This document shows, one piece after another, positions 1,312 through 63,730 of a stretch of DNA of 64,000 nt. This DNA comes from Acorus gramineus (lineage: Eukaryota > Streptophyta > Magnoliopsida > Acorales > Acoraceae): positions 930,001-994,000 of the forward strand of contig JAUJYN010000027.1 of NCBI GenBank assembly GCA_030737835.1, given 5' to 3'. The notes below the pieces were generated by a model, which searched no databases, was not told the origin of the DNA, and was given only the letters and a program-made list of their open reading frames with translations. The position numbers were made by a program, and so were the translations under genes. The first letter of the stretch is position 1. Each line of letters starts with the position of its first letter.

Positions 1312-2254
1312 TGTTATGCCTGTGTCATTTGGAGCGCTCTGATTGAAAATTTGGCTACATATTTTTTCTCCTCGAAGTTATGTATTTCCGATTTGGTATT
1401 TGGATTTGATTTTGTTAAAATCCAAGATGAAGAGGTTTAAATATGATTTTATTATGAGATGCTCAGTTTTGAGTTAGCTTTCATACAAAAGTGGAATTAG
1501 ATCAACTGGATTCATGTAGTAAAAGTAATGGGTATTTTCCAAGTATACCCCGGGGATGGAAATTTTGGCAGCAGCCCTGTTCAATGTTTAGCTCACGTTT
1601 CGAAATAATAGCTGGAGGGATTATTTGATCTTGGCATAAACATGAAAGTTGTAGATAATCTTCTTGGCTTTCCAACGGATTTTGAATTGTGCAATTCGGA
1701 GCTATATTGAGGAAGTTATGGCTGTTATAGTGAAGCTTGTACAGAATTTCAAGTCAAGGACGACTTAGTCATTTGATCCCTCTTTTAGATATTTATGTGC
1801 CAAAATATCTCTCTCTCTCTCTCTCCCTCCCATTCCCAACGTGGGATTCTTGGCCTCTCTTTCTCTCTTTCAAAGCCCCCCCATGTGTTTGTGATAAGTT
1901 CTCAAAGAGAAGTGAAGGAGAAGGTGAAGAAGGAAGCACAAGAAGGTTTGTGTGGGTGTGTTGTGTTGTTGATCCTCCTCTCTCAAGCTCCTTTTCATGA
2001 CTTCCCCCCCCCCTGATTTTGCAGCCAAGAAGGAGGCTGAGGAGAGGCTGAAGAGGTGGTGGTTGAGGTGGTCGTGAGCACGTCGAGAGCCCCGCATCTC
2101 CCCCTTTCCTTTTCCCTCTTTTGGTAAGTCCTCTTCCCCATCTTTTTTATTTTTAGGGTTGTTGGGATGGTTGGGGAGGTCATGCATGCTAGGTAGATGA
2201 GTTAGAGTGTGTGTGAGGGGTTGGGGAGGGTTAAAATGGGGTTAGGGAAGGCTG

Positions 2255-2545
2255 GGCGCGCGCAGGGGGTTGTCTGCGCGCGTGCGCGCGCAGGCGCGCG
2301 CGCAGAAGGGCGCTGGCAGGCGCAGGCGGGCGTGCAGACTCTGGCAGGCGCGTGCGAGCGTGCGCGCGTGTGGGGCAGTGCGCCTGAGCATGTGCCTGGG
2401 CGCGGGGCTGGGGTCCAGCGCGTGTGCGCGCGTGCGTGCGCGTGCTGGGGCACGCGTGGGGCTGCCCAGGGTCTCAGGTAGGTGCTGGGGCACCCGGGCA
2501 TGCGTGCGTACGCGCGTGCTCGCATGCGTGCGAGCCCGTATGCGT
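2255..2545. repeat. CpG-dense alternating purine-pyrimidine block in LTR
   Basis: Runs such as GCGCGCGTGCGCGCGC dominate. Both strands are open in several frames only because stop codons need A/T. Equivalent blocks occur in the other long LTRs at about 8160-8620, 12830-13350, 19830-20400, 25010-25910, 62440-62990 and 63740-64000. The composition favours Z-DNA or strong secondary structure. Confidence 0.75.
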
Positions 2546-2620
2546 GCATGTCTAAGTCTTTAGCATTTCTAAGTATAATTGTGATGATTACTCACCAAGT
2601 TTGATGCCCTTACCTTGCAG

Positions 2621-2659
2621 ATCTCGTCAGATGGGATGCGCGAGGTCCCGGGTTGTATG
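2621..2659 (+). other. Candidate 39-nt microexon in the 5' LTR of element A
   Basis: It is flanked by TACCTTGCAG on the left and GTGAGTGG on the right, with a branch-like CTCAC about 30 nt upstream of the AG. The same arrangement with the same length occurs at 8022-8060 (minus) and 13430-13468 (plus), and with 36 nt in the other LTR subfamily at 19686-19721, 26031-26066 and 62305-62340. Splicing is inferred, not shown. Confidence 0.45.
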
Positions 2660-4823
2660 GTGAGTGGTTCGATCCAATCCCCCCCCCCCCTCTCGGGATG
2701 CGCTCGACGCGCGTAGACGCGCGTCGCGCATCGATGGGGCCCCTTAAGCTATAATATGTAGATATCTTGCATGCTAGGCTTATATACATGTATTGTATCC
2801 ATGTATGAACGATTGTGTTGCATTCGCCCCTCTAGTATGGGCAGGTATTGCTGTAATGTGTATTGATGTATAGAATATGGCATGTCTTAGGTAGTATTGT
2901 AATACTACTCCCACCATATTAATGGGAATATACAGTATGAATAAGTCTGGGTTAATAACGGGCACCTGCCTAATATTCCCTTGCGATAAGACTCGAGGGC
3001 GTGGTATAGCTGTTGCGCCCATGCTAATGGGGCAAAGCTATGACCAGCTTCATGAGATGATGATCTCGCTCGCCCTCTCCCTCTAAACGAACTGAGTAAG
3101 TAGATGCGATTTTCTACTCGACTCAGGTTTGTTTGGAATATTGGCATGCACCTGTTAGTGCTCGAGATCGCGCTTGACCTTTTCTTTTAAGTTGGCGATA
3201 TCCAACGGATATTAGAGTATATTTTGTATGTTTATGTGATTAATGACCATGTATGCATGTTGTATGATTTATTATGATGTAAATCTATGATTAGGGAGTA
3301 TCCCTATGATTAATTGATATGTGATTGTGCATATGGTTCATGCACATAACTAAGATTAAATTCTCCTCTAAAATATATGCGCATGTTAAAACTGATAGGC
3401 CTAGTTGGAATAGGCGTGGGTATGACCCGCTGTCGGGTTGTACCTTATTAGTTAGAGCGCTAGCGATGAAATCGCCCGTGCATCCGAGCGATGCCCTCGT
3501 TTGAAATTCAGGAGGATTCATTATCTTAACGATTTGTTAAGCTGGTAGTTGGGGCATGTCACCCCCTTTGTGTCTGAGCGACGCAGCGGTGTGGGAGTAC
3601 AGTAGTATTCTATATCTCGATAAGTGATTATCGAGAGTAGTTGTTTTCCATTGGGTTCGCTTGCGAACATGGAATGTTTACTCCCAGTGTCGTCCGTGTT
3701 GAGGGGGCCCGGGTTGTAGCTGTCCTGACAGAGGGCTCCCATCCGTAGGTACCACCGATGCATTCGGGAGCGTACTGATCGTGGGAGTATACCAGGTAGA
3801 GGCTACCCAGGAGAGGGTTAACGAATGATATTGCGAGCGTGGAATCGTTCTCCCCTTCGTTGGATCCGATGTAGGGACTCCCCGGCCATTACAGCTGTCC
3901 TGACAGAGGGCTCCCATCCGTAGGTACCACCGACGCGTTCGGAAGCGTACTGATCGTGGGAGTATACCAGGTAGAGGCTACGCGGGGGAAAGGGCTACCG
4001 GTGGACCAAGGGTGTAGAGCAGTCTAAGTCTCTTCCAAAAGTCCTATGTCACCTCCGGGGGTGAGGGTAAGGATGAGGTGAAGACACATCGCCGCGTGAC
4101 CCATTTGTTGTTTGTCCGTTCCCATAGTTGTTGGGTCCGGTTGTGAATCGATGTTGAAAGACATCGTTGGGCGGTTAACTCGATGTAGATGATCTAGTAG
4201 TGTTGTGTGGACCAGTAATCCCGGGTCTCCTCGACCAACGGTATGGTCTCTCCCTAAAAGTCCCAAGAGTCTCCCTCCGGGAGTGAGGGTGAGGGTGAGG
4301 TTGGTCGCCCTGTTATCCATGGGTTTCCACCCATGTTTTCCTTGAAAGGAAAGTGCTTATGTATTGAACTGTTGTATGGTGATTGGTTTCCAGCCACTCA
4401 CTGAGCTTGTAGCTCACCCCTTGCATACTGTTTCTTTTCAGGGGCAGTGTTGGGCGTGGAGCTGGAGCTTTCCTGTGGCGTGGTCTTATGGGCGTGGAGC
4501 GTTCTTCCGGCGGGTGGCGAGTGTGAGGCTGTCAGCAGTCCTAGAGTCATTGTATGTATTGTAAATCGTGCATGTGGCACAGGTTGTATTTTTCTTTGGT
4601 CTAGACTTGGCTCTCACAAGTCAGTGATTGTGTATTCGGGTCTGTAATAATATTTTTGATTTACAGACATTGTTATATATTATGCTTCCGCTTTTCAGTC
4701 AGTTATCATTATCCTTGCTTTGCCACCTTGTGTGTTGTTGTTGGAGTCTTTATTGACCTCAGGTATTGATAGCTGATATTTACTTTTGCCACGTCTCGAG
4801 GACGGCCGCCCTGGGGCGTGACA

Positions 4824-5915
4824 AAAGTTGGTATCAGAGCCTGGTCCTGTCAGAGCCTAAGTCTAGTCGTATAGATGATGAGTCGTAGGATTGTCATCCG
4901 AGTACTCTTGTTTTAGAAGTTATCTTAGGTTGCTGACATGCCTCCTCGCATCCGTTGACGTGGACATGACCCCCTGGACCCACCCTTAAGTTGTCGACTG
5001 GGTCGACTGAATAGGGTCAGTTGTTGGATCCCTTGTGGTGGGATTAAGGCTTGGGTAGGAGATTCTAGCCTAGTAGTGTGATAGTGATGAATTGGTCGCA
5101 ATTTCTAAGGTATGGATTGCGTCTCGATAATGGAGCTCTTTCCCATGCATCGGTATTGCTGGTAACCATTGAGTTCGCGTGCGGCGCCAGTTTCAAGTGT
5201 TGAGGATGTGGAGTATTGCTCATTAAGGGGTGATGTCTTCTTCTAGCCTTCCTACTCAGGATTAAGGGGCCTTGCAGGGTCAGCGTTGAGACCCGGGCTA
5301 GGGTACTCCGTGTTCCTTGTTTGGTTGTCGGGATATCCTATATCGGGACCTCATGGTGCCCTCCCAAGGTTCTTTTCCCAGTCAAGGAATACCTTTGAAG
5401 CATCTATAAGATGATGGATTTTTCCTCTCACTTGGAAGGTGCTGTAGCGAGTGGTGATGCGTACGATCGGGATTGGGTGCATCCTATTGCAGCTTGGTGG
5501 GCGATCGCTTGTGGACTGGGTTCCATAGTGACATCTGGAGTCGCTTCGATATATCGTTTTGCGTTGTAGCTGCCCGGTTGAGGCAAGAGCCCCGTGAGGT
5601 GCTCCCAGATACTATGCCTGTTGGTGCGCCCATATGGCAGAGGTAGCGGGCTTGGGAGGCTACCAGGTAGAGGCCATACCGGGAGAGTGCTACTGGATGA
5701 TGTCGAGAGCGTGGACTCCCTGTGATGAATCTGCCCATTGAGTGCAGGATGCTGGAGTTCCAATGGTTATAGTTGAGCGGCCTATCTCTGGTGGCATGTG
5801 AAGCACAGTTGTGGATACTATCGCGTTTTGCCCCACATTGATCGTAAATGAGGAGACGCGATGCTAATGTTCGTGATGGGACTCAACCGCCTTATTAGAT
5901 AGATGACGTCGCATA
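4824..5915 (+). pseudogene. 5' internal region of element A (leader and presumed gag remnant)
   Basis: This follows the PBS and should hold the leader and gag. No gag motif can be recognised, and every frame is broken by stops. An antisense open frame at 5428-5763 is matched by a similar one in element C (58412-58666). The match is explained by DNA-level similarity, so it is not called as a gene. Positions about 5268-5390 form a roughly 120-bp module also found inside other LTRs (26383-26490, 19265-19375, 61865-61985). Confidence 0.6.
4829..4840 (+). other. Primer-binding site, element A (initiator tRNA-Met type)
   Basis: TGGTATCAGAGC lies six bases after the LTR end GTGACA. This is the classic plant LTR-retrotransposon primer site complementary to the 3' end of initiator tRNA-Met. 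The same motif is at 21755-21766 in element B and, inverted, at 59335-59346 in element C. Confidence 0.9.
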
Positions 5916-8900
5916 TGTCACGCCCCAGGCGTCCTCGAGACGTGGCAAAATTAATATAATATCAGCTATCAATACCTGAGGTCAATAAGGACACCAACAA
6001 CAATACACAAGGCGGCAAAGCAAGATAATGATAACTGACTGAAAAGCGGAAGCATAATATATAACAATGTCTGTAAATCAAAAACATTATTACAGACCCG
6101 AATACACAATCAATGTCCTATGAGAGCCAAGTCTAGACCAAAGAAAATACAACCTGTGCCACATGCACGATTACAAAGCATAAAATGACTCTAGGAATGC
6201 TGACAGCCTCACACTCGCCATCCGCCGGCAGAACGCTCCACGCCCATAAGACCACGCCACAGGAAAGCTCCAGCTCCACGCCCAACACTGCCCCTGAAAA
6301 GAAACAGTATGCGAGGGGTGAGCTACAAGCTCAGTGAGCGGCTGGAAACCAATCACCATTCTACAGTTCAACACATAATCAGTTCCCTTTTCCAAGGAAA
6401 AACATGGGTAGAAACCCAATGGATAACTGGCTCACGCGGCGGTGCGACCAACCTCACCCCCACCCTCACTCCCGAAGGGAGTCTTTTGGGACTTATGGGG
6501 AGAGACCATACTGTCGGTCAAAGAGACCCGGATTTACTGGTCTACTCAACACTACTGGATCATCTACATCTAGATAATCGCCCATCGATGTCCTTCAACA
6601 TCCATCACGAGACCGGACCCAACATCTATGGGAACGGTCGAACAACAAATGGGTCACGAGGCGACGCGTCTTCGCCTCATCCACACCCTCACTCCTGAAA
6701 GGAGACATTTTGGGACTTTGGGAGAGACTTAGACTGCTCTACACCCCTGGTCCACCGGTAGCCTCTCCCCGCTCCGTAGCTTACCTGGTATACTCCCACA
6801 ATCAGCACTGTCTGAACACATCGGAGGTACCTACAGATGGGAGCCCTCTGTCAGGATAGCCTGTCTAACGTCGGGGATGTCACTACACGGATCCAACGAA
6901 GGGGAGAACGATTCCACGCTCGTGACATCATTCATTAACCCTCTCCCGGGTAGTATCTACAACCCGATCTCCTCAACTCACCGCTCTACACCCTTGGTCC
7001 ACCGGTAGCCTCTCCCACCCTCGTGGCCTCCGCCTAGTCCTCTGACAGGTATAGCCAACGCCGGGGAGTTCCTACATCGGATCCATACGAAGGGGAGAAC
7101 GATCCCATGTTCGCAAAGCGAAACCCAATGGACAACAACCACTCTCGATACTCGCTCATCGAGATATCACACACATGCATAACAACAACCAACACACTCA
7201 TATTAACCTCAAAGTAGTCATAGTCCCTAAACGGGAGTAACTACACAATCCAGTGGGTCGTTACATCGCCGACCCACCACACCCTCACCCTCACCCTCAA
7301 AGGGGTGACATGGTCTTTTGGGACTGACTAGGCTGTTAATCACCCTTGGTCCACCGATAGCCTCTCCTCCACTCCGTAGCTCGCCTGGTCTACTCCCACG
7401 ATCAGCACAGTCCGACGCATCGGAGGTACTTACAGATGGGAGCCCTCTGTCAGGACAGCCTGTCTAACGCTGGGGAGTCTCTACACGGATCCAACGAAGG
7501 GAAGAGAAACAACCTACCCACACGGATACGATCCTCTTGGATCCGCCGACACCGATTGCAACTCTACTAATGCCATGAATTCACAAGAATTCCTCCAGGG
7601 CGCATAACTAAGATGCGGGGAGACATATATTATAACAACAAGGTTATAATATTCTCTAAGGCATGCTTACAACAATATAATCACATAATCCCATCTTGAT
7701 TTAAATAAATTAAACTAAATGGGAACATGCATAGGTTCAGGGCTTTCCTAGCATGAAACATGGTATCAGGATGCATTTCCCTAGCATAAAAGGTCTAATG
7801 TGGCATGGATACATCATATTGATCATGCATAGATCAAGGCTTTTAAGTACAGGACATGGTGTCCAGGCATGTACGGGCCTCTATACACGATACATGGATG
7901 TATATCCCTAGCATGCAAAATATCTACATATTAGTTAGGGGGCCCCATCGATGCGCGACGCGCGTCTACGCGGGTCGAGCGCATCCCTAGAGAGGGGGGG
8001 GATTGGAATCAAACCACTCACCTTACAACCCGGGACCTCGCGCATCCCATCCGACGAGATCTGCAAGGTAGGGGCATCCAACTGGTGAGAAACAACACAA
8101 TTTACACAAAGAAATCATTAGAAATACCCAATACTCGGACAAGCATGCATACGGGCTTGCACGGATGCGAGCACGCATGTACGCAAGCGAGTCTGAGTGC
8201 CCCGACACCTACCCGAACACTTGGGCAGCCACACGCATGGCCCCCCGCACGCGCACGCACGAATGCGCACTCACGCACACACCCCAACACCATCAGCGCA
8301 CTGCCGCGCGCCTGCCCGCGCGCCAAGACGCGCTGCCGCACGCGCGCGCACGCTCGTGTGCACTGTGCGTCCAGCCCGCGCCCTCGCGCAGCACCCCGTG
8401 CACGCCCCAGCACGCGCACGCACGCCCGCGCGTGCACTGGTCCCCTGCCCCGCGCCCAGGCACATGCCCAGACGCACTCCCGCGCGCACCCTCGCTCGCG
8501 CCAGCACCCGCATGCACCCACACGCGTCTGCGCGCCCGACTTCGCCTGCATGCACACCTGCGCGCGCACGCGCGCAGACTACGCCCAGCGCATGCCCAGC
8601 CCATTCCAACCTCATTTTAACCCTTCCCAACCCCTCACACACACCCTAACCCATCTACCTAGCATGCATGACCTCCCTAACATCCCCTTAAGCCAAGAAA
8701 ATCAAGAAAAGAAGGGGAGGAGCTCACCTTGGAGGGGGAACAAATGGGGGAGGTTCGGGGGCCCTCGACGCACCCGCGACCACCTCAACCGCCACCACCA
8801 CCACCACCACCCTTGGCCTCCTCAGCCCTCCCATGGCTGCAAATCAGGGGGGGGGGGGCGGAACAAACAACAACAACACAAGAACCAACCTTCTCTTCTT

Positions 8901-9522
8901 CCTTCACCTCCTCCTTCTCTTCATCTCTTTGAGGAATTCTATCAAACACTTGGTGGGGCTTGAATGAGAGAAAGAGAGGCCAGAAAAATTTAGGCGTGGA
9001 AGTGAGAGGGAGAGAGAGAGAGAGAGATATTTGCACATAAATATCTAAAGAGGGGGATGAAAAGACCTAGTCGCCCTTTGACTAGAAATTCTGTGCATGC
9101 TTCACTGGAACAGCCATAACTTCCTCAATATAGCTCCGAATTGCACAATTCTAAGTCCGTTGGAAAGCCAAGAGGATTATCTACAACTTTCATGTTTATG
9201 CCAAGATCAAATAATCCCTCTAGCTAATCCGAAATTAGAGCTAAACATAGAACAGGGCTGCTGCCAGAATTTCCATCCCCGGGGTATACTTGGAAAAATA
9301 CCCATAACTTTTACTACAAGAATCCAGTTGATTTAATTCCACTTCTGTACGAAAGCTAACTCAAAACTGGACATCTCATAATAAAATCATATTTAAACCT
9401 CTTCATCTTGGATTTTAACAAAATCAAATCCAAATACCAAATCAGGAATACATAACTTCCAGGAAAAAAAATTATATACCCAAATTTTCAAACAGAGTGC
9501 TCCAAATGACACAGGCACAACA
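5916..9522 (-). mobile_element. Solo LTR (subfamily 2) inserted in inverted orientation in element A
   Basis: On the plus strand it begins TGTCACGCCCC and ends GGCACAACA, the reverse complement of a complete LTR (TGTTGTGCC...GGCGTGACA, 3.6 kb). The uninterrupted internal sequence is preserved in element C, where the two flanks sit together around 58260. No clean target duplication is visible, and a few bases (GG/CA) were probably lost at the junction. It contains a 39-nt microexon-like island (8022-8060), a CpG-dense block (about 8160-8620) and a G-run near 8848. Confidence 0.85.
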
Positions 9523-11163
9523 TTGTCGAGGTCCGACGACTCCTTTTTGCGTGTCTTGTGGATTAAGTGCGGTTGAGCGGCTTACCAAGCGTGTAAGTGT
9601 CATCATGAGCGCCAGCCATGCTCGAGGAGCAGAATTTGGACTTAATTGTTCGAGGTGTTGTTTTGATCTCCCCGTGGAGGTTGAAGATCAATTACCTTTG
9701 CCGCGAATCGATGATCTGTTTGACCAGCTCTGGGAGCGAGTGTCTGTTGTTAGATCGATCTTCGCACAAGGGTACCACAAGTCAGAGATCCGGGAGTTAG
9801 ACATCCTGTAGATGGTCTTTCATGACCGTTCAGGCACTACGAGTTTTAAGTATTGCTGTCGGGGTTGACGAATGCACCGGATGCCTTCGTGGATCTCAAA
9901 AGTTTATTGGGCTTCCGTGGACTACTTTGGGGTAGTCTTCATTGAGATTGCTGTGGTGTGATGAAAAGGTGATGTGGGTGACCTTGTTTCCCCAGGTTGG
10001 CATGCCCTCAGGCAAAGTTCGAGAATCATCATCATCGCGTTGGAAAGCGTCAGTCCATGGAGATTCCTCAGCGGACGTGGGAGTGTGTTATCGGGGATTG
10101 TTGCGGACTCGCTAATGTCACGTTCGGGTCACGACGCCGTCTAGGTGATCAATGACCGACTGACTAAGTCCGCGCTTCCCTCCCTATCCGACTGATTGAG
10201 TTTCTGGACGCCTTGACGTCGGTTTTCACCTTCGCGATTGTTAATCTTCATGGCACTCCGGTCGACGCTATTTTCGGTTGAGACGCGAGGGTTACTTTGA
10301 GGTTGTGGCGCAGCCTTAGCATCTTTTGGCGCGAGCCTCCACTTAAGTATAGCGTTTCATTGCCGATGGACAGCCGGGCAAAGAGGACGATTCAGACCTT
10401 GGAGGACATGCTAAGTGCCTACTTGCTCGATGATAAGGGCAGTTGGGTGAGGCAGCACCCATTTGGTGGGGTATGCCTGCAAGTCGACTGCCATTCGAGC
10501 ATCCAGATAGATCTGTGAAAGGCACTCTACAGGCGTAGTTTATACCTCCCTTGTGTTGGGACGGTTGACAAGCGCCAGTTCGAGGGGCCATAAGTCAGTT
10601 GTTTGACCTTGCGGTGGCCAGGTTGGTTCGTGTGTGCATCTGCACCTCCCAGAACCGACAGGAGGGTTACGCAGGTCATCGTCGCCAGGAGCCTACCCTT
10701 GGGTTTGGCGACCATGTTTTCATGAAGGTGTCCCAGTTTAAGGGCATCCTCCGTTTTGACGATCGGGGCAAGCTGAGTTGGCTCTTTAATGAGATTGTTT
10801 CTCGTCATTAAGTGGACTGGGGAGGTGGCTTATCATGTAGCCTTTCCCCCACATCTGGCTCATGCCCACGACGTCGTCCTTGTCTCGTGGCCGAGGCATT
10901 ATGTCCACGATCCTGCTCAGTCATTCTGTTCGACCGCCTCATTCTCGAGCTAGAATTGTCGTTCGTAGAGCAGTGGATCAAGGTCAAGGACCAGCATGAG
11001 AAGTGGCTCCACGCTAAGACCGTTCCTTTGATTACAGTGTGTCGGTAGCGCCAGTTCGGTGCAAAGACCACTTGGGAGCAAAAAGGTCTATGCATGATAC
11101 TTTCGGTCTTCCCTTTTTGGTTTCCTTAAATTTCGAGGACTAAATTTCCTAAGGGGGGAAGAA
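9523..11163 (+). pseudogene. Degenerate reverse transcriptase and integrase remnant, element A
   Basis: Conceptual translation recovers Gypsy pol landmarks in changing frames. RT-like stretches include PRIDDLFDQL, GYHKSEIRELDI, HYEF and SGLTNAPDAFVDL (about 9700-9900). Integrase-like stretches include a WVIVDRLTKSAHF-like segment (about 10130-10170), TLEDMLSA (about 10395) and a chromovirus-type C-terminal GDHVF-K-S-FKGILRF motif (about 10705-10770), followed by an EVA-H-AFPP segment. Large parts of RT, all of RNase H and the N-terminal integrase zinc region are missing. Stops at 9809-9811 and 9847-9849 are shared with elements B and C. A polypurine tract (AAGGGGGGAAGAA) ends the region. No functional protein is possible. 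Confidence 0.8.
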
Positions 11164-14100
11164 TGTTATGCCTGTGTCATTTGGAGCGCTCTGATTGAAA
11201 ATTTGGCTACATAATTTTTCTAAGTTATGTATTCCCGATTTGGTATTTGGATTTGATTTTGTTAAAATCCAAGATGAAGAGGTTTAAATATGATTTTATT
11301 ATGAGATTCTCAGTTTCGAGTTAGCTTTCATACAAAAGTGGAATTAGATCAACTGGATTCATGTAGTAAAAGTTATGGGTATTTTTCCAAGTATACCCCG
11401 GGGATGGAAATTCTGGCAGCAGCCCTGTTCAATGTTTAGCTCACGTTTCGGAATAGCTAAGGGATTATTTGATCTTGGCATAAACATGAAAGTTGTAGAT
11501 AATCGTCTTGGCTTTGCAACGGATTTTGAATTGTGCAATTTGGAGCTATATTGAGGAAGTTATGGCTGTTATAGTGAAGCTTGTACAGAATTTCAAGTCA
11601 AGGACGACTTAGTCATTTGATCCCTCTTTTAGATATTTATGTGCCAAAATATCTCTCTCTCTCTCCCTCCCTCCCATTCCCAACGTGGGATTCTTGGCCT
11701 CTCTTTCTCTCTTTCAAAGCCCCCCCATGTGTTTGTGATAAGTTCTCAAAGAGAAGTGAAGGAGAAGGTCAAGAAGGAAGCACAAGAAGGTTTGTGTTCG
11801 TGTTGTTGTGTTGTTGATCGTCCTCTCTCAAGCTCCTTTTCATGACCTCCCCCCCCCTTGATTTTCAGCCAAGTAGGAGGCTGCGGAGAGGCTGAAGATG
11901 TTGTGCCTGTGTCATTTGGAGTGTTCTGATTGAAAATTTGGGTACATAATTTTTTTCCTAGAAGTTATGTATTCCAGATTTCGTATTTGGATTTGATTTT
12001 GTTAAAATCCAAGATGAAGAGGTTTAGATATGAGTTTACCATGAGATGTCCAGTTTTGAGTTAGCTTTCGTACAAAAGTGGAATTAGATCAACTGGATTC
12101 CTGTAGTAAAAGTTATGGGTATTTTTCCAAGTATACCCCGGGGAGGGAAATTCTGGCAGCAGCCCTGTTCCATGTTTAGCTCTAATTTTGGAATAGCTGG
12201 AGAGATTATTTGATCTTGGCATGAACATGAAAGTTGTAGATAATCCTCTTGGCTTTCCAACGGACTTGGAATTGTGCAATTCGGAGCTATATCGAGGAAG
12301 TTATGGCTGTTCCAGTGAAGCATGCGCAGAATTTCTAGTCAAAGGGCGACTAGGTCTTTTCCCTCCTTAGATATTTGTGTGATAAATATCTCTTCTTCTC
12401 TCTCTCTCCCTCCCTTTTATCCCCACGTCAACCTCTGCTGGCCTCTCTTTCTCTCTTTCACAAGCCCCCCCTAGGTGTTTGATTTAATGTTTCAAAGAGA
12501 AGTGAAGGAGAAGGTGAAGAAGCATGTGTAGGTTTTGTTGTGGTGTTGTTGATCTTCTCTTCTCTCAAGCCATTTCATGATCCTTCCCCCCTGATTTTCG
12601 GCTGAGGAGGGCTGAGGAGGTGGTGGTAGGGGTGGTGGTGGTTGAGGTGGTCGCGGGTGCGTCGAGGGCCCCCGAACCTCCCCCTTTCGTTCCCCCTCCA
12701 AGGTGAGCTCCTCCCCTTCTTTTCTTGGTTTTCATGGCTTAAGGGGATGTTAGGGAGGTCATGCATGCTAGGTAGATGGGTTAGGGTGTGTGTGAGGGGT
12801 TGGGGAGGGTTAAAATGAGGTTGGGATGGGCTGGGCGCGCGCTGGGCGCAGTCTGCGCGCGTGCGCGTGCAGGCGCGCTTGCGCGCGCAGGCGCATGCAG
12901 GCGCGCGCTGGTAGGCGCTGGCGGGTGCGCGCAGAGTGGTTGCGCGGGTGCGCGCTGGCGCTGGTGCGAGCGGGGGTGCGCGCGAGTGCGCGCGGGCAGT
13001 GCGCCTGGGCATGTGCCTGGGCGCGGGGTAGGGGACCAGTGCGCGCGCGCGTGCTGGGGCGTGCGCGGGGTGCTGCGCGAGGGTGCAAGGGCTGGACGTG
13101 CAGTGCGCGCGGGCGCGCACGAGCGTGCGCGTGCGTGCTGCATCGCGGCTGGGCGCACGGGTCAGGAGCGCGACAGTGCACCGATGGTGGTGGGGTGCGT
13201 GTGTGCGTGCGCATTCTGCGTTCGCATTCGTGCGTGCGCGTGTGGGGGGCCATGCGTGTGGCTGCCCGAGGGTTCGGGTAGGTGTCGGGGCACTCGGACT
13301 CGCGTGCGTACGTGCGTGCTCGCATGCGTGCGAGCCCGTATGCATGCTTGTCTGAGTATTGGGTATTTCTAATGTTTTCTATGTGTAAATTGTGTTGTTT
13401 CTCACCAGTTGGATGCCCCTACCTTGCAGATCTCGTCGGATGGGATGCGCGAGGTCCTGGGTCGTAAGGTGAGTGGTTCGATTCCAATCCCCCCCCCCCC
13501 TCTCTAGGGGTGCGCTCAACCCGCGTAGACACGCGTCGCGCATCGATGGGGCCCCCTAACTAATATGTAGATGTTTTGCATGCTAGGGATATACATCCAT
13601 GTATCGTGTATAGAGGCCCGTACATGCCTGGACACCATATCCTGTACTTAAAAGCCTTGATCTATGTATGATCAATATGATGTATCCATGCCACCTTAGA
13701 CTTTGTATGCTAGGGATATACACCCTCATATTGATTAATATGATGCATCCATGCCACATTAGACCCTTTATGCTAGGGAAATGCATCCTGACACCATGTT
13801 TCATGCTAGGAAAGCCTTAACCTATGCATGTTTCCCATTTGGTTTAATTTATTTAAATCAAGATGGGATTATGTGATTATATTGTTGTAAGCATGCCTTA
13901 GAGAATATTATAACCTTGTTGTTATAATATATGTCTCCCCGCATCTTAGTTATGCGCCCTAGAGGAATTCTTGTGAATTCATGACATTAGTAGTGTTAGG
14001 AAGCGTTGTCGACGGATCCAAGAGGATCGTACGCCCGTGGGTAGGCTGTTTCTCTTCCCTTCGTTGCATCCGTGTAGGGACTCCCCAGCGTTAGACAGGC

Positions 14101-15673
14101 TGTCCTTACAGAGGGCTCTCATCTGTAGGTACCTCCGATGCGTCGGACTGTGCTGATCGTGGGAGTAGACCAGGCGAGCTACGGAGTGGAGGAGAGGCTA
14201 TCGGTGGACCAAGGGTGATTAACAGCCTAGTCAGTCCCAAAAGCCCATGTCACCCCTTGAGGGTGAGGGTGAGGGTGTGGTGGGTCGGCGATGTAACGAC
14301 CCACTGGATTGTGTAGTTACTCCCGTTTAGGGACTATGACTACTTTGAGGTTAATATGAGTGTGTTGGTTGTTGTTATGCATGTGTGTGATATCTCGATA
14401 AGTGAGTATCGAGAGTGGTTGTTTTCCTTTGGGTTTCGCTTTGCGAACATGGGATCGTTCTCCCCTTCGTTGGATCCGATGTAGGAACTCCCCGGCGTTG
14501 GCTATACCTGTCAGAGGACTAGGCGGAGGCCACGAGGGTGGGAAAGGGCTACTGGCAGACCAAGGGTGTAGAGCGGTGAGTTGAGGAGATACTACCCGGG
14601 AGAGGGTTAATGAATGATGTCGCGAGCGTGGAAACGTTCTCCCCTTCGTTAGATCCGTGTAGTGACATCCCCGGCGTTAGACAGGCTGTCCTGACAGAGG
14701 GCTCCCATCTGTAGGTACCTCCGATGTGTTCGGACAGTGCTGATCGTGGGAGTATACCAGGTAAGCTACGGAGCGGGGAGAGGCTACCGGTGGACCAGGG
14801 GTGTAGAGCAGTCTAAGTCTCTTCCCAAAGTCCCAAGATGTCTCCTTTCAGGAGTGAGGGTGTGGATGAGGCGAAGACGCGTCGCCTCGTGACCCATTCG
14901 TTGTTCGACCGTTCCCATAGATGTTGGGTCCGGTCTCGTGATGGATGTTGAAGGACATCGATGGGCGATTATCTAGATGTAGATGATCCAGTAGTGTTGA
15001 GTGGACCAGTAAATCCGGGTCTCTTCGACCGACGGCATGGTCTCTAGACCAGTAAATCCGGGTCTCTTCGACTGACAGTATGGTCTCTCCCCATAAGTCC
15101 CAAAAGACTCCCTCCGGGAGTGAGGGTGGGGGTGAGGTTGGTCGCGCCGCCGCGTGACCCAGTTATCTTGGGTTTCTACCCATGTTTTCCTTGAAAGGAA
15201 ATTGATTATGTGTTGAATTGTTATATGGTGATTGGTTTCCAGCCACTCACTGAGCTTGTAACTCACCCCTCGCATACTGTTTCTTTTTAGGGGCAGTGTT
15301 GGGCGTGGAGCTGGAGCTTTCCTGTGGCGTGGTCTTATGGGCGTGGAGCGTTCTTCCGGCGGATGGCGAGTGAGAGGCTGTCAGCAGTCCTAGAGTCATT
15401 GTATGTATTGTAAACCGTGCATGTGGCACAGGTTGTATTTTCTTTGGTCTAGACTTGGCTCTCACAGGACAGTGATTGTGTATTCGAGTCTGTAATAATG
15501 TTTTTGATTTACAGACATTGTCTATATATTATGCTTCCGCTTTTCAGTCAGTTATCATTATCCTTGCTTTGCCACCTTGTGTGTTGCTGTTGGAGTCTTT
15601 ATTGACCTCAGGTATTGATAGTTGATATTTTATTATTGCCACGTCTCGGGGATGTCCGCCTTGGGGCGTGACA
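11164..15673 (+). repeat. 3' LTR of element A, chimeric (4.5 kb)
   Basis: The first 735 bp (11164-about 11898) match the 5' LTR. Then a second LTR start (TGTTGTGCCTGTGTC) appears at about 11899, and the rest follows the subfamily 2 sequence seen in the solo LTR at 5916-9522. A 43-bp tandem duplication lies at 15004-15089. A hairpin with 8-bp arms GTGGGTCG/CGACCCAC sits at 14280-14304. A 39-nt microexon-like island is at 13430-13468. Confidence 0.8.
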
Positions 15674-18232: not shown

Positions 18233-21200
18233 GCTCACGCCCCAAGGCGGCCGTCCCCGGGACGCGGCAAGCGTATACATGATATCAGCAGTCAATACAG
18301 GAGATCAATAGCATACCATAAACAACAGCTAAAAAGACAACACAGACAACAAAGAGGCTGACATGATGTATACACAAATAGCGGAAGCTAAAAAGACTGA
18401 ATCTGTAATCCAAAAACATACTACAGACTCGATACATAATCATATGTCCTGTGAGAGCCAATATACACACATACATCCAAATATAGTCCAAACTGGGTGC
18501 CCAACCACAGAAATATATACATACAATAAAAGGGAAGAATGCTGATGGCCTCTAAAACTCGAGGGACGTGGCGCTACTCCGCTACTGGTGCAGTCCCTCG
18601 GGAAGCTCCTCCTTCAAGTCCGCCTCGGTAATCACTGGAGAAAAATATTATGCGAGGGGTGAGCCACACACTCAGTGAATAGCACAACCCATGCATCACA
18701 ATTCATATTAACCACAATTAATCAGCAAAAGCCTCAAAGTGGCATAAACAACACAAATCCGGGGGTTCGTTACATCGCCGAACCACCAAACCCTCACCCT
18801 CACCCTCACCCCTCAATAGGTGACAAAGGATATTGGGACTTAATAGGCTGATAATCATCCTTACACAATCCAGTGGGTCGCCACATCGCCGGCCCACCAC
18901 ACCCTCACCCTCACCCCTCAATAGGTGACATAGGCTATTGGGACTGACTAGGCTGTTGGTCACCCTTGGTCCACCGATAGTCTCTCCCCCCTCCGTAGGC
19001 CGCTTGGCCACCCCCACATTCAGCACAATCCGTCCCAAATCAGGAGGTGCCTAATGATGGGAGCCCCTGCACGGGACAGCCTTTCTAACACCGGGGCAGT
19101 CTCTACACGGATCCAACGAAGGGAATAGAACAGCCTATCCATCGCATATGATCCACTCGGATCCGCCGACGACACATCTCAACAACTCTAATGTCTTGAA
19201 TTCTTCATAATTCCACCAGCGCGCATAACCAAGATGCGGGGAAAATATAAGATAATATGAGGAAAAGAAACCTTGGGAGGCAACCTGAGGTCCCGATATA
19301 GGACATCCCGCCAACCAAACAAGGAACACGGAGTACCCTAGCCCGGGTCTCAATGTTTACCTCGCAAGACCCCTTAATATTCCCTAAGGCATGCTACAAT
19401 ATCATAAGTTTGCATTTAATTTAATAAATCAAACTAATAGGACGCATACATAGGTCGAGGCTTTCCTAGCATGATAACGAGGTGACAGGATGCACGGCTC
19501 ATACACATATCCTAAGGGTGCAAGTCCCTAACATACAAGTCTAGGGTGGCATGCATTCTACACATTAATCATGCTTGCATGGATTACAATTAACAAGTTA
19601 ATATCAACTTCGGTGCCCCAGGGGAGGACGGTATACGCCCAAGTGCATATAGCGCCTCCCAACTGGGTTGGGTTGTCCCACTCACCGGTGACCGGGTCGT
19701 CGCGCGACCGTCCATCAAGATCTGCAAGACAGGGTAATTAACTTGGTGAGTAACATACACAAATACCACAAAATACACAAAAATACACTAAAATACCCAA
19801 CACTCGGACAAGCGCACATACGGCCTGTACGCACGCGAGGCCGAGCACCCCGACTCACTCCCGAACCCTCGGCAACCATCCGCACTGCCACCCGCCCTCG
19901 GATGCACCGCCGCGCCCCAGCCCGCGTACCCAAGCGCCCTGCCGAGCCCCTGCCCGCACGCCAGGACACGCCGCCGAGCTCCCCTGGTGCACCGCGCGCT
20001 CACTGCGCCCCAGCGCAGCAGCCCAGCGCCACATCGCCTCGCCCCGCGCCCAGCGCCCCATCGCCTCGCCCCGCGCGCACCCTGCGCGCACCACCGGCTC
20101 GCCTCACCGCGCACACCCGCACGGCGCCCTGCGCACAGCACCCGTACGCGGCCCCCTGCGCGCAGCACGCACCGCGCCTCTGCGCAGCGCCCCACGCGCA
20201 CACCCGCGCATGGCGCCCAGCACCTGCGACCTGCGCCCAGCACCCGCGACCTTCGCCCAGCGCCCAGCACCCGGTGCCCAGCACCCGCGACCATCGCCCA
20301 GCGCCCAGCACCCGCGCCCAGCGCCCAGCACCCGAGCGCACACCCGCGCGCACGCGCGCGCGCCCTGCCACCTGCTCCGCCTTCTGCGCTGCCTGCTACG
20401 CTGCCTGTGCTACCATCCTACCCAAGACAGCCAACCACCCTGCCTGCTTGCCCGAGCCAGCCAACCACCACTCACCGGCCACCAATGGCCTCCAACCGCC
20501 CCCAACCACCACCCACAGCCCCCAACCGCCACCACACACCCAAAGACACCCCCTAACATGCATCTAAACATGGAAAAGAAGGAAAGAAACCTTACCCAAG
20601 GAAAGGAGAGGAAGGGAAGGGGACCGGGAGCTCTTCGTGCACCGAAACACCTCCCCAAAGACCTCCACCACCGAGCTCTTCCTCAGCCCTCGAAATGGCT
20701 GAAATCAGAGGAGAAAAGAGGGGGTCACAGGGGGTCAAACAAGTGGGAACTCGAATCCGAGACCACCCGTAGATAGATCGGGACAAGATCTAACCTTTCT
20801 ATTCTTTGTGTTTTTTATTTCAAGCACTCTAACTAGCTCAAAATCAAGAAAAAGAGAGAGGGGAGAGAGAAAATCAATGGGGAAGATGATGAATAGTGGG
20901 GGGCTAATTTTTAGATTCACTTAAATAAGTCAACACCACTTAAATTAGGGTTAACTAGGATTAAGGCTTGATTAATTAGGTTTAAGTGAGTTTTGACTTA
21001 GGTCAACTCAACCACAAATAAAAACAAAAGGGGTTGACCAAGTCTATGGGCCCACTTTGACCAAGTCACTCTCCCAATGACTTCTCGCTCGGTCAAAACC
21101 TGGATACGCCGCGGAACTGCGAAATTCTGAAACGTTACCGGAATTCAATGAAATTTTCATGAGTGGCTTGGAATGGCACCAGGACACATAATATGCAGTT

Positions 21201-21345
21201 AGATTTTCAATCGGAGTCCTCAAACACAGGACGATAGCTAACAGTCCAAAATTTTAGCGGTTCCGATCAAAAAACGAAAAAAACTCAAAAACTGCCAGAA
21301 TGCTCCAATGGTTACCAGAAGGCTAAAAGTGACACATATATAACA
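18233..21345 (-). mobile_element. Solo-like LTR, subfamily 3, minus strand, inside the 5' LTR of B
   Basis: On the minus strand it starts TGTTATATATGTGTCAC (21345 downward) and ends near 18233, where the expected TGTCACGCC reads CTCACGCC. Plus-strand LTR sequence is broken at CTTGTAGCTCAC and resumes GCGCATACTATTT at 21346. It carries a 36-nt microexon-like island (19686-19721), a CpG-dense block (about 19830-20400) and the candidate terminal exon (18634 down to a stop at 18582-18584). Confidence 0.8.
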
Positions 21346-24223: not shown

Positions 24224-27200
24224 TGTTATATATGTGTCACTTTTAGCCTGCTGGTAACCGTTGGAGCGTTCTGGTAGTTTTTCATTTTTTTTCGGTTTTC
24301 AATCGGTACCGCTAATTTTTGGACTGTTAGCTATCGTCCTGAGTTAGAGGACTCCGATTGAAAATCTAACTGCATATTTGGTGTCCTGGTGCCATTTTAG
24401 GCCTCTCACGAAAATTTCGTTGAATTCTGGTAACGTTTCCGAAATTTCACAGTTCCGGGGCGTATCTGGGTTTTTAAGTCGCTTGCTATATAAGTGGAAT
24501 CTAAAAAGTGTTTAGCACTGTTCATCATCTTCCTCCCCAAGCCCTCTCTCTCCTCTCCTCCGTTTTTCTTGCTTTTGAGGCCCTTAGACCCCTCAAAGCT
24601 TAAAAGTTAAAACCTAGTCCCGATCTACACCCCGGTGGTTTCAAATCCCTTTTCCGGTGAGATTTGCCCCTCCGTCCGCCCTCTCTTCTCCTCTGTTTTG
24701 GCCCATCTCGTTGGTGGAGGTAGATCCGGGCGTTGGAAGCCCTTTGGGAGAGGTTTCGGTGCGCGGAGGGCAACCGGATTTCCCTTCCTCCCCTTGGTAA
24801 GCCTCTTTTTCCTCTCTTTCTTGCTTGGATGTATGCTAGGAGGGTGGAAATGGGGTTGGGTGGAGGTTGGCGGCGGTGGGTGGCCGTCGGGGGCTGTGGG
24901 AGGTGGTCGGAGGCTGTGGTGGTGGTCGGAGGTGGGTGGAAGAGGAGCTCGGGCTGGCAGGCTTGCAGCTCGGGCTGGCAGGCTGCTGTCTCGGGCAGGG
25001 CAGCAGCACAGGGTGGTGCAGGCGAAGTAGCTGGCGCGGGCGCGCGGCGGCGTGCACACGTGCGTGCGCTCGGGCGGTGCTGGGGGCCAGCAGGGCTGGG
25101 CGTGCGCGCTGGGCAGGCTGGCAGGGTTAGCTCGGGTAGGCTGGGAGCAGGTGCACCAGTTTGCCGGGCGCGCGAGCGCGTGCGCGCGGGTGCGCGCGCG
25201 GGCGTGCGCTCGAAGGGTGCAGGGAGATGCGTGCGGGTAGGCTAGCTGGGCTGTGCGCGCTGGCAGGCCGGGCGAGCAGGCTGGGCGCACAGGCGAGCAG
25301 GGCAGGGGCGCTCGGGCATCAGGCGGGCAGTGCCTCGGGCGTGCAGGCGAGCGGTGCTCGGGCCACTCGGCGACGCGCGCAGGCAGGCAACGCGGGCAGT
25401 AACGTGGGCAGGCTGGCAGCGCGCTGGGTGCGTGTTGTGCAGGCGTGCGCGTGGGCGCTGGGTGAGGGTCCCGCGTGCTGGGCGCAAAACGCTGGGCGCT
25501 GGGTCGCGGGTACCGGGTGCTGGCCGAGGGTGCTGGGCGCTGGGCGCTGGGGCGCTGGGCGTTGGGCACCGCTGTGGGGCATGCGCGCGGGGCGGAGCTG
25601 GTGGTGCGCGCGGGGTGCGCGCGGGGCGGAGCTGGCAGTGCGCGCGGGGCGAGGCGCTGGGCGCGCGGGGCGTGCGGTGTGCTCGTGTGGTGTGCGCGGG
25701 GAGCGCGGGGGTGCGCGCGGGCTGCTGCGGCGGGGCACAGTGGGCGCGGTGCACCGGGTGGCTCGGCTGCGGGTCTAGGGCGGCGGGCAGGGGCCCGGCG
25801 GCACCTAGGCGGGCAGGCTGAGGCGCGGCGGCGCACCCGAGGGGTCGGGTGGCCGTGCGGGTGGTTGCCGGTGGTGCGGGAGTGAGCCGGAGTGCTCGGG
25901 CTAGCGTGCGTACGTGCCGTATGTACGTTTGCCCGAGTATGGGGTATTTTTAGAGTATGTTTAATGTATTTTTTTGGGTATTTTGGGGTAATTGTGGATT
26001 TTACTCACCGTATAAATGCCTGTCTTGCAGATCTTGACGGACGGTCGCGCGACGACCCGGATTGCAGTGAGTGGGACAATCCAACCTAGTAGAGAGGTGT
26101 TATACGCACTTGGGCGTATACCGACCTCTCCTGGGGCACCATGGATAGATATTGGCATGTGTAATATGTATATCATGCGAGCATGATTTAATTGTAGAAT
26201 GCATGTTACCCTAGACTTTGCATGTTAGGGACTTGCACCCTTAGGATATGTGTATGAGCCATGCAGCATGTCCCCTGGTTCCATGCTAGGAAGCCCGACC
26301 GATGCATGTGCCCTACTAGTTTATTTGTTAAATTAAATGCTAGTATTTGTTAAATTGCATGTTATAGTGAATATTATAGGGGAGGGGCCTTGCGAGGACA
26401 ACGGTGAGACCCGGGTTAGGGTACACCGTGTTCCTTGTTTGGTTGTCGGGGTGTCCTATAACGGGAACTCACGCTGCCCTCCCGAGTTTCTTTCCCCAAC
26501 GATATTCCACCCTGTTATAACCTTATGCATGTTCCCCGCATCGTAGTTATGCGCCCTGGTGGGTTCTGAGGAATTCAGAACATTAGTGTTGTTATGATGT
26601 GTTGTCTGCGGATCCGAGTGGATCATATGCGATGGATAGGCTGTTCTGTTCCCTTCGTTGGATCCGTGTAGAGACTACCTCAGCGTTAGACAGGTTGTCC
26701 CGTGCAGGGGCTCCCAGTAGTAGGCGCCTCCTGATCTGGTAGAAGGACTGTGCTGAACGTGGGAGTGGCCAAACGACCTACGGAGTGAGGAGAGACTATC
26801 GGTGGACCAAGGGTGACCAACAGCCTAGTCAGTCCCAAGAGCCTAGGTCACCTGTTGAGGGTGAGGGTGAGGGTATGGTGGGCCGGCGATGTGGCGACCC
26901 ACTGGATTGTAAGTCCCAATATCCTTGGTCACCCCTTGAGGGGTGAGGGTGAGGGTGTGGCGGGTTGGCGGAAGCGACCCGCTGGTTTTGTGTAGCCAGT
27001 CCCAATATCCTTGGTCACCCATTGAGGGTGAGGGTGAGGGTGTAGTGGGTTAGCGTTAGCAACCCACTAGTTGAGGAATTGTTGTTATTTGTGGCTATGG
27101 TAATGTGGTTGTGGATGTTAAGAATTATCTGGTTGGGGTCAATATTGTCTGTGATGCATGGGTTGTGCCGTTCACTGAGCGTGTGGCTCACCCCTCGCAT

Positions 27201-27608
27201 AATATTTTTCTTCAGTGTCATCTGAGTCGGATCTGGAGGAGGAGCTCCCCGAGGGACTTCATCAGTAGCGGAGTAGCGCCACGTCCCGCGAGTATCAGAG
27301 GCTATCAGCATCCCTTGTGCTTGTATGTATTATTTTCCGTGCTTGGGCACGCGTTTGTGTTGTATTTGGATGTCTTTGTATGTATATTGGCTCTCACAGG
27401 ACATGTGATTATGTATGGAGTCTGTAATGTGTTTTGATTACAGATTCAGTCTTTAGCTTCCGCATTTGGTGTATATATCATGTCAGCCCTGCTTTTGTTG
27501 TCTGTGTGTCGTTCTGGTTGCTTGTGTATGATATATTATTGACCTCCTGTGTAGATTCTGATATTTTATATACACTTGCCGCGTCTCGGGGACGCCCGGG
27601 GCGTGACA
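24224..27608 (+). mobile_element. Solo LTR, subfamily 3, complete (3.4 kb)
   Basis: It starts TGTTATATATG and ends GGGGCGTGACA with C-runs on both sides, consistent with a CCCCC target duplication in a poly-C target (24219-24223 and 27609-27613). Features in order: TATA-like TATATAAG at 24487-24494, donor-like TTG|GTAAGC at 24797, CpG-dense block (about 25010-25910), acceptor CTTGCAG at 26030, 36-nt microexon (26031-26066), a captured roughly 120-bp module (about 26383-26490), (GGGTGA)n repeats (about 26845-27050) and an acceptor TTCTTCAG at 27215. No internal coding region is present. Confidence 0.9.
26031..26066 (+). other. Candidate 36-nt microexon in the subfamily 3 LTR
   Basis: It is bounded by TGTCTTGCAG and GTGAGTGGG, with a TACTCACC branch-like element about 30 nt upstream. 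Joined to the next candidate exon (27216 onward) it stays open to a TAG at 27266-27268, and the junction makes an ATG. Splicing and translation are inferred only. Confidence 0.4.
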
Positions 27609-30783: not shown

Positions 30784-30855
30784 TGCTTCAAACTACCAAC
30801 GCCAGTCACAGCTAGCTTTTGTTCATCAAAGCATAAAAAAAAATAAAAACTAAAA

Positions 30856-35520: not shown

Positions 35521-35521
35521 G

Positions 35522-35540
35522 TTTGGCGCCGTCTGTGGGA
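35522..35540 (+). other. Primer-binding site of the Tat element
   Basis: TTTGGCGCCGTCTGTGGGA begins one base after the LTR end. The TGGCGCC core is common in Tat/Athila elements and differs from the iMet type used by the other Gypsy family here. The primer tRNA is not certain. Confidence 0.75.
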
Positions 35541-35567
35541 TACTAAAACAAAAAGCCAGTGTCCGCA

Positions 35568-42659: not shown

Positions 42660-42820
42660 GGGAACAGAGCGCGGAGCCCCAGCCTCAAGGGCAGCACTAG
42701 GTGAATCCGTGAATGTCGTGACAAAAGGGTGTCACGGGGACGTCCACCACAGCCGAAGTGACTGGGGGCATCCCAGCAAGAGTCAGAGTGATTGGTGGCA
42801 CCCCCGAAGGAGTAGTCATG

Positions 42821-45968: not shown

Positions 45969-46248
45969 TTATTTCACTGCAAGTATCGAGGAGTAATTAT
46001 CAATGCCAATGAAAAGGGGATTCACAAAATCCGAAGGGGTGCTAACGTTCGGATTTCCCAGACACCATTTAGAGGTCACGCACCATCAAGGCTAATAGAG
46101 CAAATCAGCCGTCAAATCCTGGGTGGGTTAGAGAATCCCGAGAAGGCAAACGACCAGATCTTTGACCCCCAAAATGGAATGGAGGCGAGGTGATTTATCA
46201 TGATCTCCTGCTCTCTCGACAAGACAAAAGAGCAGAAGAAGGGGCATC

Positions 46249-47092: not shown

Positions 47093-47099
47093 ATTAGAT

Positions 47100-55831: not shown

Positions 55832-56633
55832 CGTTTGTAATTTATATCTCATTTGAGACTGCTATAGAACTTATCGAATTGAATCAGACTACCATGTGTA
55901 TACATGGTCCATCTGTGACGTACAATTTGTGTGATGGGCAATGAATAGATGCAGCGCGTGATGGATAGAGCTAATAACCCCCCCCCCCCCACCAAATCTA
56001 TCACGGGAGTCACATGATCACAACCACAAAAATGGTGGATAAGTTTTGGTGATCACTAAAGACTACGCCTTACTCGTATATAAAAAAAAAAAACTGAAAC
56101 GAAACGCAAATACTAATAACATACAATAGGTGAGAAAATTAAAATTGGACTCTTGAATGTCAAATGTCTTCAAAGAGATCAGTTGTAATATCCTTTCAGG
56201 ATGTGCAGTTCGTTTCTAGAATCCTTGCAATTCTTCAAATTCTCCAACAGGACAAGGAACTAGACCGAGGACATTGGTAAAGGAGCTACTCCTAGAAACA
56301 TGATAAATCATCCAGAACTTACAAGCAGTAGACTTCATCGATGACATCACTTAGGGAAAATGGATCAATATATGTCAGGAGCATTAATTGTTGTTCCAAG
56401 CCTGCATTTGAAAAACATAAGGATTGGATGAAAGACTCTTGAAAATGGGACTCTACTTTTGTACGAAAGCTAACTCAAAACTGGACATCTCATAGTAAAC
56501 TCATATTTAATCTTCTTCATCTTGGATTTTAACAAAATCAAATTCAAATACCAAATTGGAAATACATAACTTAGGAAAAAAATTATGTACCTAAATTTTC
56601 AAACAGAGCGCTCCAAATGACACAGGCACAACA

Positions 56634-59352: not shown

Positions 59353-60614
59353 TGTCACGCCCCAGGGCGGCCGTCCCCGAGACGTGGCAATAATAAATAT
59401 CAGCTATCAATACTTGAGGTCAATAAGGACACCAACAACAATACACAAGGCGGCAAAGCAAGATAATGATAACTGACTGAAAAGCGGAAGCATAATATAT
59501 AAAAATGTCTGTAAATCAAAAACATTATTACAGACCCGAATACACAATCAATGTCCTGTGAAAGCCAAGTCTAGACCAAAGAAAATACAACCTGTGCCAC
59601 ATGCACGATTTACAAAGCATAAAATGACTCTAGGAATGTTGACAGCCTCGCACACGCCACCCGCCGGCAGAACGCTCCACGCCCATAAGACCACGCCACA
59701 GGAAGCTCTAGCTCCACGCCCAACACTGCCCCTGAAAAGAAACAGTATGCGAGGGGTGAGCTACAAGCTCAGTGAGTGGCTGGAAACCAATCACCATTCT
59801 ACAGTTCAATACATAATCAATTTCCTTTCAAGGAAAACATGGGTGGAAACCCATGGATAACTGGGTCACGCGGCGGCGCGACCAACCTCACCCCCACCCT
59901 CACTCCCGGAGGAAGTCACTTAGGACATATGGGGAGAGACCATACCGTCGGTCGAAGAGACCCGGATTTACTAGTCTACTCAACACTACTGGATCATCTA
60001 CATCTAGATAATCGCCCAACGATGTCCTTCAACATCGATCACGAGACCGGACCCAACAACTATGGGAACGGTCGAACAACGAATGGGTCACGAGGCGACG
60101 TGTCTTCGCCTCATCCACACCCTCACTCCTGAAAGGAGACATCTTGGGACTTTGGGAAGAGACTTAGACTGCTCTACACCCCTGGTCCACCGGTAGCCTC
60201 TCCCACCCTCGTGGCCTCCGCCTAGTCCTCTGACAGGTATAGCCAATGCCGGGGAGTTCCTACATCGGATCCAACGAAGGGGAGAACGATTTCCACGCCT
60301 GTAACATCATTCGTTAACCCTCTCCCGGGTAGTATCTACAACCCGATCTCCTCAACTCACCTCTCTACACCTTGGTTCGCCAGTAGCCCTTTCCTACCCT
60401 CGTGGCCTCCACCTAGTCCACTCCCACCATCCGTACTGTCCGACACATCGGAGGTACCTACGGACGGGAGCCCTCTGTCAGGTACAGCCAACGCCGGGGA
60501 GTTCCTACATCGGATCCGACGAAGGGGAGAATGATCCCATGTTCGCAAAGCGAAACTCAATGGAAAACAACCACTCTCGATACTCGTTTATCGAGATATC
60601 ACACACATGCATAA

Positions 60615-63600: not shown

Positions 63601-63730
63601 AAGTGAGGTTTAAGTGTGGTTTGACCCAAGTCAACCCAACCACACAAAAAGCCAAAAACCTTTGACCAAGTCATGGGCCCCACTTTGACCAAGTCAAGTC
63701 TCCCAATGACTTCTCGCTCGGTCAAAACCC
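60615..63730 (-). mobile_element. Subfamily 3 LTR nested in the 5' LTR of element C, truncated
   Basis: It begins TGTCACGCCCC at 60615 after CACACATGCATAA and matches the LTR at 18233-21345. It breaks off at about 63730 before reaching its terminus and is joined to subfamily 2 LTR sequence (ATTACTCGGACAAGC). About 0.95 kb of the host LTR and the last part of this LTR are therefore deleted. It contains the candidate terminal exon (61006 down to a stop at 60954-60956) and a 36-nt microexon (62305-62340). Confidence 0.8.
61140..61545. repeat. Tandem (CCCTCA)n/hairpin repeats in LTR
   Basis: Five copies of a block with CACCCTCACCCTCACCCCTC and AATAGGTGACATAGGATATTGGGACT recur. Three of them are preceded by CAGTGGGTCGCTA...ACCCAC. 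The homologous place in the solo LTR at 26845-27080 has three copies and the older LTRs one or two. Confidence 0.85.

Follow-up and report, generated by a model that had tools for sequence, protein, structure and literature searches.

Ordered splice-like signals and a predicted microexon within the long terminal repeats of a Del/Tekay-like Gypsy element of Acorus gramineus

The window analyzed here is a 64,000-nucleotide (nt) stretch of the Acorus gramineus genome (assembly GCA_030737835.1, contig JAUJYN010000027.1, positions 930,001 to 994,000 of the forward strand). Self-comparison of this window revealed six nearly complete copies (A to F) of the long terminal repeat (LTR) of a Gypsy retrotransposon, together with truncated copies; they lie in both orientations and are partly nested (Table 1). 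An initial annotation had proposed that most copies of this LTR keep an ordered set of splice signals around a microexon, with a CpG-dense block as the first intron, and it is this arrangement that we describe and weigh here.

The element was assigned by the features of its LTRs. Copy A is followed by a tRNA-Met type primer binding site (TGGTATCAGAGC), presumably of the initiator Met tRNA type, and sites of the tRNA-Met type are typical of the Del/Tekay clade. Copy A has TG...CA ends and a U5 (unique 5′) attachment (att) sequence of type A (GGG at -8 to -10), and all six LTRs carry a single variable 5′ CpG island, the cluster B pattern. By LTR ends, primer binding site, length and CpG island, the element resembles the Del/Tekay Gypsy elements as set out in the available text of Cruz et al. 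2014 (PMC4029996), which describes a plastic 5′ CpG island in Del (Tekay) chromoviruses and proposes that this island aids escape from host control. The internal remnants contain stops in every frame, and Pfam returned no family for any of six open reading frames (ORFs) from these relic regions (a pol-like tail was recognized by eye only), so that the assignment rests on LTR features and not on a pol tree. Polypurine-tract (PPT)-like runs stand before two further LTR starts, near 11160 and 23800. When compared by eye, the internal 5′ regions of two copies (4826-5915 and 59353-58257) have many stops in common, which points to amplification of a form that was already coding-dead.

Copies A to F all present the same signals in the same order: donor 1 (GTAAG or GTGAG) after a CT-rich leader, a CTCAC motif, a TTGCAG acceptor (acceptor 1), an island of 39 or 36 nt, a GTGAGTG donor (donor 2), a second CTCAC, and a second AG (acceptor 2). 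Conserved donor, branch, and acceptor signals, as found in spliced plant elements, are therefore present in all six. The distance from CTCAC to the acceptor is 24-27 nt at acceptor 1 and 25-26 nt at acceptor 2 (with both acceptors pooled, 12 of 12 sites fall within 24-27 nt of the AG). Acceptor 2 is CAG in five copies and TAG in copy C. Predicted intron 1 measures 497-1234 nt, predicted intron 2 measures 1051-1822 nt, and predicted exon 3 extends 381-400 nt to the LTR end. The pattern TTGCAG-N30-45-GTGAGTG is matched six times in the window, compared to 0.04 matches expected in shuffles. The initial annotation was confirmed by this comparison: its island coordinates and lengths are all right (39 nt in A, B, and C; 36 nt in D, E, and F), its donor 1 positions hold (those given as near 20590 and 63180 are 20595 and 63182), and CTCAC precedes TTGCAG in every copy. 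Its second CTCAC and acceptor likewise occur in all six copies. A seventh, truncated copy has lost TTGCAG, and "most copies", not all, is therefore the right wording. The GC-rich block of this truncated copy holds a 56-nt tandem repeat (4.8 copies, 16503-16770). Intron 2 of copies E and F holds an 82-nt minisatellite rich in GTGAGGGTGAGGGTG (26830-27055 and 61148-61535), which contains GTGAG look-alike donors.

Because the copies share descent, the fair test of conservation is to compare motif columns against the remaining columns of the alignment. We found that 29 of 31 splice-motif columns were invariant among the six aligned copies, compared to 701 of 2049 other ungapped columns (Fisher p 9e-12, an optimistic value because the motifs were picked beforehand from the same six copies). 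A ranking of invariant runs, which is independent of motif choice, gave a similar picture: the longest invariant run in the LTR, TTGCAGATCT, comprises acceptor 1 and the first four exon bases, and CTCACCCCT, TCACTGAG, and GTGAGTGG (two branch-region runs and donor 2) are among the top eight, while the remaining four of these eight are not splice motifs. The run GTGAGGGTG (position 4283 in copy A) is also invariant across the six copies. Mean differences between the two subfamilies were as follows: U3 (unique 3′), 0.58; exon 1, 0.46; intron 1, 0.43; island, 0.34; intron 2, 0.34-0.43; early exon 3, 0.43; and LTR end, 0.28. In terms of conservation, the island and the LTR end thus stand out along with the splice signals. 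The initial annotation had called for such a comparison over many genomic copies, and ours covers part of this, namely the six window copies and the islands of 100 listed genome matches.

Conservation of this kind could also arise without splicing, if the motifs were conserved DNA or RNA elements of a promoter or packaging region; for example, transcription could start past the CpG-dense run and close to the island, which would then form part of a regulatory site. Consistent with this, the island ranks with the best conserved parts of the LTR, a property that would suit a core promoter or an RNA signal, and copy E has a TATAAA 20 nt upstream of its island. However, in the other five copies the stretch from the CpG-dense run to the island contains no TATA[AT]A, and the conserved bases make up donor, branch, and acceptor motifs that are correctly ordered and spaced and that recur at a second acceptor 1-1.8 kb away. 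Moreover, 26 island variants folded singly had no structure in common, neither a shared hairpin nor a kissing loop. We consider an explanation without splicing unlikely.

The acceptor-island-donor unit is abundant well beyond the window. TTGCAG-N30-45-GTGAGTG has 15,040 exact matches (7452 + 7588) in the 399-Mb genome, compared to 56 (28 + 28) for a reversed-pattern control. Among 100 listed matches, all from one contig, 89 islands begin with ATCT, as do those of the window, and the lengths of these 89 are 36 nt (74), 39 nt (10), 37 nt (4), and 35 nt (1); islands of the listed matches vary at position 5 and in their final bases. We examined the first eight genome loci, of which two (L001 and L007) belong to the LTR family. 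At L001 the second acceptor region is complete, and the CTCAC that precedes acceptor 1 in the window copies is replaced by CTAAC, a branch-type substitution lying ~23 nt from the exon when counted by hand. The other six (L002-L006 and L008) are unlike the LTR family, and some may be real gene microexons.

The LTR resembles plant gene leaders in its CT-rich leader, its GTAAG donor, and the GC-richness of its first intron, and this likeness would be expected if the LTR had captured the 5′ untranslated region introns of a host gene and its signals were relics with no present role. Relics, however, would not be expected to persist between subfamilies that differ by 28-58% in sequence, or in an acceptor-island-donor unit found in thousands of places, and we consider such a capture very improbable.

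We next turn to the CpG-dense run, defined as 100-nt windows with at least nine CpG (a definition that is not the program of Cruz 2014). The main run, ~300-900 nt long, lies within predicted intron 1 in all six copies, as the initial annotation had it, and spans from ~90-200 nt past donor 1 to ~30-130 nt short of acceptor 1. CpG-rich sequence is found elsewhere too, in windows over the island, in single intron 2 windows (up to 10 CpG per 100 nt), and in the first 300 nt of the copy F stretch, past its limit of similarity to D. The ends of intron 1 are T-rich (34-41% in the first 80 nt and 33-46% in the last 100 nt), and its first 80 nt are CpG-poor (observed/expected 0-0.43). The available text of PMC4029996 cites monocot LTR elements in which CpG-rich stretches immediately precede TATA boxes. 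Within 400 nt upstream of donor 1, we found TATA[AT]A in copy E only, at -310.

Together, these features suggest that the LTR of this Del/Tekay-like element probably contains a transcription unit whose splicing takes place inside the LTR. Splicing is favored because conserved donor, branch-like, and acceptor sets recur at fixed spacing, with T-rich intron ends around a CpG-dense middle, because the acceptor-microexon-donor unit is in genome-wide excess, and because a frame of the 36-nt class continues across the predicted exon 2/exon 3 junction. The initial proposal of a spliced LTR transcript with a microexon is thus supported in part, in that the sequence favors it. The anatomy of the LTR and its conservation are observed directly, and from them we infer the start of transcription, splicing, and the division of RNA pools, as follows. 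RNA would start in the CT-rich leader, ~275 nt upstream of donor 1; intron 1, with the CpG-dense run in its middle, would be excised, the 36/39-nt microexon joined, and intron 2 (1.05-1.8 kb) excised, so that exon 3 would run on through the LTR end and primer binding site into the internal region. In the 3′ LTR, exon 3 would instead terminate at poly(A) signals, which we take the TGTATGTATTGTA and TCTGTAATAAT stretches in exon 3 of copy A to resemble. If poly(A) is added in exon 3, the terminal repeat (R) would reach from leader to exon 3 (~2.8 kb) with both introns inside. A spliced template would give intron-less LTRs, yet the copies keep their introns, so that replication would have to use unspliced RNA; no intron-less arrangement was present among the probe hits in the window (in which truncated copies are not judgeable). 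The spliced RNA, lacking 1.9-2.5 kb of intron, may serve as mRNA or be a dead-end transcript, and by analogy with BARE1 of barley (PMC3735527, as far as its available text goes) the simplest interpretation is that it would be kept out of replication.

Several observations weigh against splicing. The aligned set comprises only six copies, related by descent, and between subfamilies exon 1 and early exon 3 are conserved no better than the introns. The genome pattern requires intact sites, and its matches therefore show abundance and not loss rate. In the 1.5 kb examined at each of L001 and L007, donor 1 was not matched by pattern; in L007, the 40 nt preceding acceptor 1 contain no CTNAC, and no second acceptor was matched by pattern. 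Over its whole length, intron 1 has a high GC content (63-72%) and little T (18-23%), in contrast to the U-rich plant introns of the BARE paper (PMC3735527, available text), and its last 100 nt are not CpG-poor (observed/expected 0.41-0.99). Finally, a sunflower expressed set contained no Tekay elements, according to the available text of PMC7730604, and transcripts may accordingly be hard to find.

The frame that crosses the predicted second junction raises the alternative that the island and exon 3 are coding, specifying a protein C terminus (in E and F, DLDGRSRDDP...SESDLEEELPEGLHQ-stop), with an upstream exon other than the leader, for instance an internal gag or pol exon that would be joined to the 3′ LTR by splicing and so give a subgenomic mRNA. 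Among 51 distinct 36-nt islands (35 distinct 30-nt cores), of which only those with at most five differences from the commonest were used, 11 of 20 variants were synonymous in the DLDGRSRDDP frame, compared to 23 of 87 possible ones (one-sided Fisher p 0.0019, best of three frames), although this test drew on listed matches from one contig selected for intact flanks, and CpG-type changes make up 10 of 22 island variants. The frame runs uninterrupted through the predicted junction to a similarly placed stop in D, E, F, and L001, and the length difference of L001 is 12 nt, in frame. Against this, another frame has a longer open stretch in E (147 codons from stop to stop) and in F (144 codons), but has stops in D and L001; the 39-nt class has stops within the island in two of its three copies (B and C); differences between D and E fall on codon positions 1/2/3 as 5/1/6; and the 27 nt past the stop differ less between D and E (2 of 27) than the frame does (12 of 48). 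We also considered a coding leader and rejected it, as the DLDGR frame, followed through exon 1 of D, E, and F as far as the preceding stop or a limit of 250 nt, has no M, and the M of copy B is in another frame. We regard the coding reading as quite improbable and the common frame of island and exon 3 as a weak hint, to be treated as a lead; if the frame were true, the second splice junction would be supported as well.

A fuller version of splicing within the LTR would make the LTR a complete spliced gene module of leader exon, microexon, and coding, polyadenylated terminal exon. The 5′ LTR would then supply an mRNA leader and the 3′ LTR an acidic tail (DLDGRSRDDP...EGLHQ) on a subgenomic protein, while splicing would mark an RNA as mRNA, unfit for replication, and leave the CpG island free to vary. 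We think it distinctly unlikely that all of this holds. The last element also applies to simple splicing within the LTR, under which an intronic position would explain why the "plastic" CpG island is free to vary.

In one review, plant LTR elements are described as generally intron-free, with Ogre and EVADE as exceptions (PMC12786077), and further exceptions appear in other papers (BARE1, CRR, Bagy2, and two sunflower elements). According to the available parts of these sources, Ogre, CRR, Bagy2, EVADE, and sunflower Tyran and Varan have spliced RNA (PMC3735527, PMC12786077, PMC6317226, PMC7730604), but the introns, wherever a position is given, lie in or between coding regions (in Ogre between gag-prot and rt) and not in the LTR. 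BARE1 is described as having separate RNA pools for translation and replication, so that replication must avoid spliced RNA, as we propose here; it differs in being a Copia element, in that its intron, of 104 nt, lies at the end of gag and not in the LTR, and in using separate promoters for each pool (PMC3735527, available text). Among the papers listed from a library of open-licence articles, most of them by title and opening of the abstract, we found no report of introns inside plant Del/Tekay LTRs. The strings "intron" and "splic" have no occurrence in the available text of Cruz 2014 (PMC4029996), whereas here the CpG island lies inside a predicted intron.

Retroviruses of the human T-cell leukemia virus type 1 (HTLV-1) type have a splice donor in R and acceptors in the internal region. 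They likewise place a splice site in the repeated part of the LTR, whereas here donor, microexon, and acceptor would all lie within one LTR. Del/Tekay elements may reach very high copy numbers in the genomes of plants. Were their LTRs spliced, the plastic CpG island, so far unexplained, would be an intron, solo LTRs would be ready-made first-exon donors for neighboring genes, and the separation of translation and replication RNAs in such elements would become testable.

Table 1. Positions in the window of the LTR copies, their predicted parts, and associated remnants
Feature	Coordinates	Strand	Remarks
LTR copy A (5′ LTR)	1312..4823	+	3512 nt; begins TGTTATGCC, finishes GGGGCGTGACA
Copy A, predicted leader exon 1	1850..2123	+	CT-rich; predicted start
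Copy A, predicted intron 1	2124..2620	+	contains CpG-dense run ~2212-2511
Copy A, predicted microexon	2621..2659	+	39 nt
Copy A, predicted intron 2	2660..4441	+	1782 nt
Copy A, predicted exon 3, portion inside LTR	4442..4823	+	contains TGTATGTATTGTA and TCTGTAATAAT stretches
Primer binding site	4829..4840	+	TGGTATCAGAGC; 5 nt past end of LTR copy A
LTR copy B	5913..9523	-	donor 1 8727; island 8060-8022 (39 nt); exon 3 from 6293
LTR copy C	11898..15673	+	donor 1 12703; island 13430-13468 (39 nt); TAG acceptor, exon 3 from 15291
LTR copy D	18235..21345	-	donor 1 20595; island 19721-19686 (36 nt); exon 3 from 18634
Copy D, 5′ end			likely at TGTTATATATGT; similarity limit 21100
LTR copy E	24224..27608	+	donor 1 24797; island 26031-26066 (36 nt); exon 3 from 27216
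Copy E, 5′ end			likely at TGTTATATATGT; TATATAAG at ~24487
LTR copy F	60615..63729	-	donor 1 63182; island 62340-62305 (36 nt); exon 3 from 61006
Copy F, 5′ limit	63729		limit of similarity to D; true 5′ end may be further out
Truncated LTR copy	~17792-15675	-	donor 1 near 17045 and donor 2 (GTGAGTG) retained; acceptor 1 TTGCAG lost
Internal remnant, same element	56452..59353	-	many stops in all frames; PPT-like run, then LTR start, near far end

In the window as a whole, Rfam gave no matches at gathering thresholds, and a bacterial-type promoter scan gave one minus-strand match, which is uninformative for a plant. Pfam analysis of four other ORFs returned AP2, Retrotrans_gag, rve with Integrase_H2C2, and Exo_endo_phos, the last below its cut-off. 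An AP2-domain gene, which together with the retroelements points to a flowering plant, lies between repeat blocks at 30847-31416, and a remnant at 49095-54163 is LINE-like (long interspersed nuclear element) by eye, with an endonuclease-type match of 22.3 bits compared to the Pfam cut-off of 24.5. A second, unrelated Gypsy element occupies 34734-47095, with gag and integrase domains (Pfam), two matching end segments ~91% alike, and 60-nt tandem repeats near both ends.
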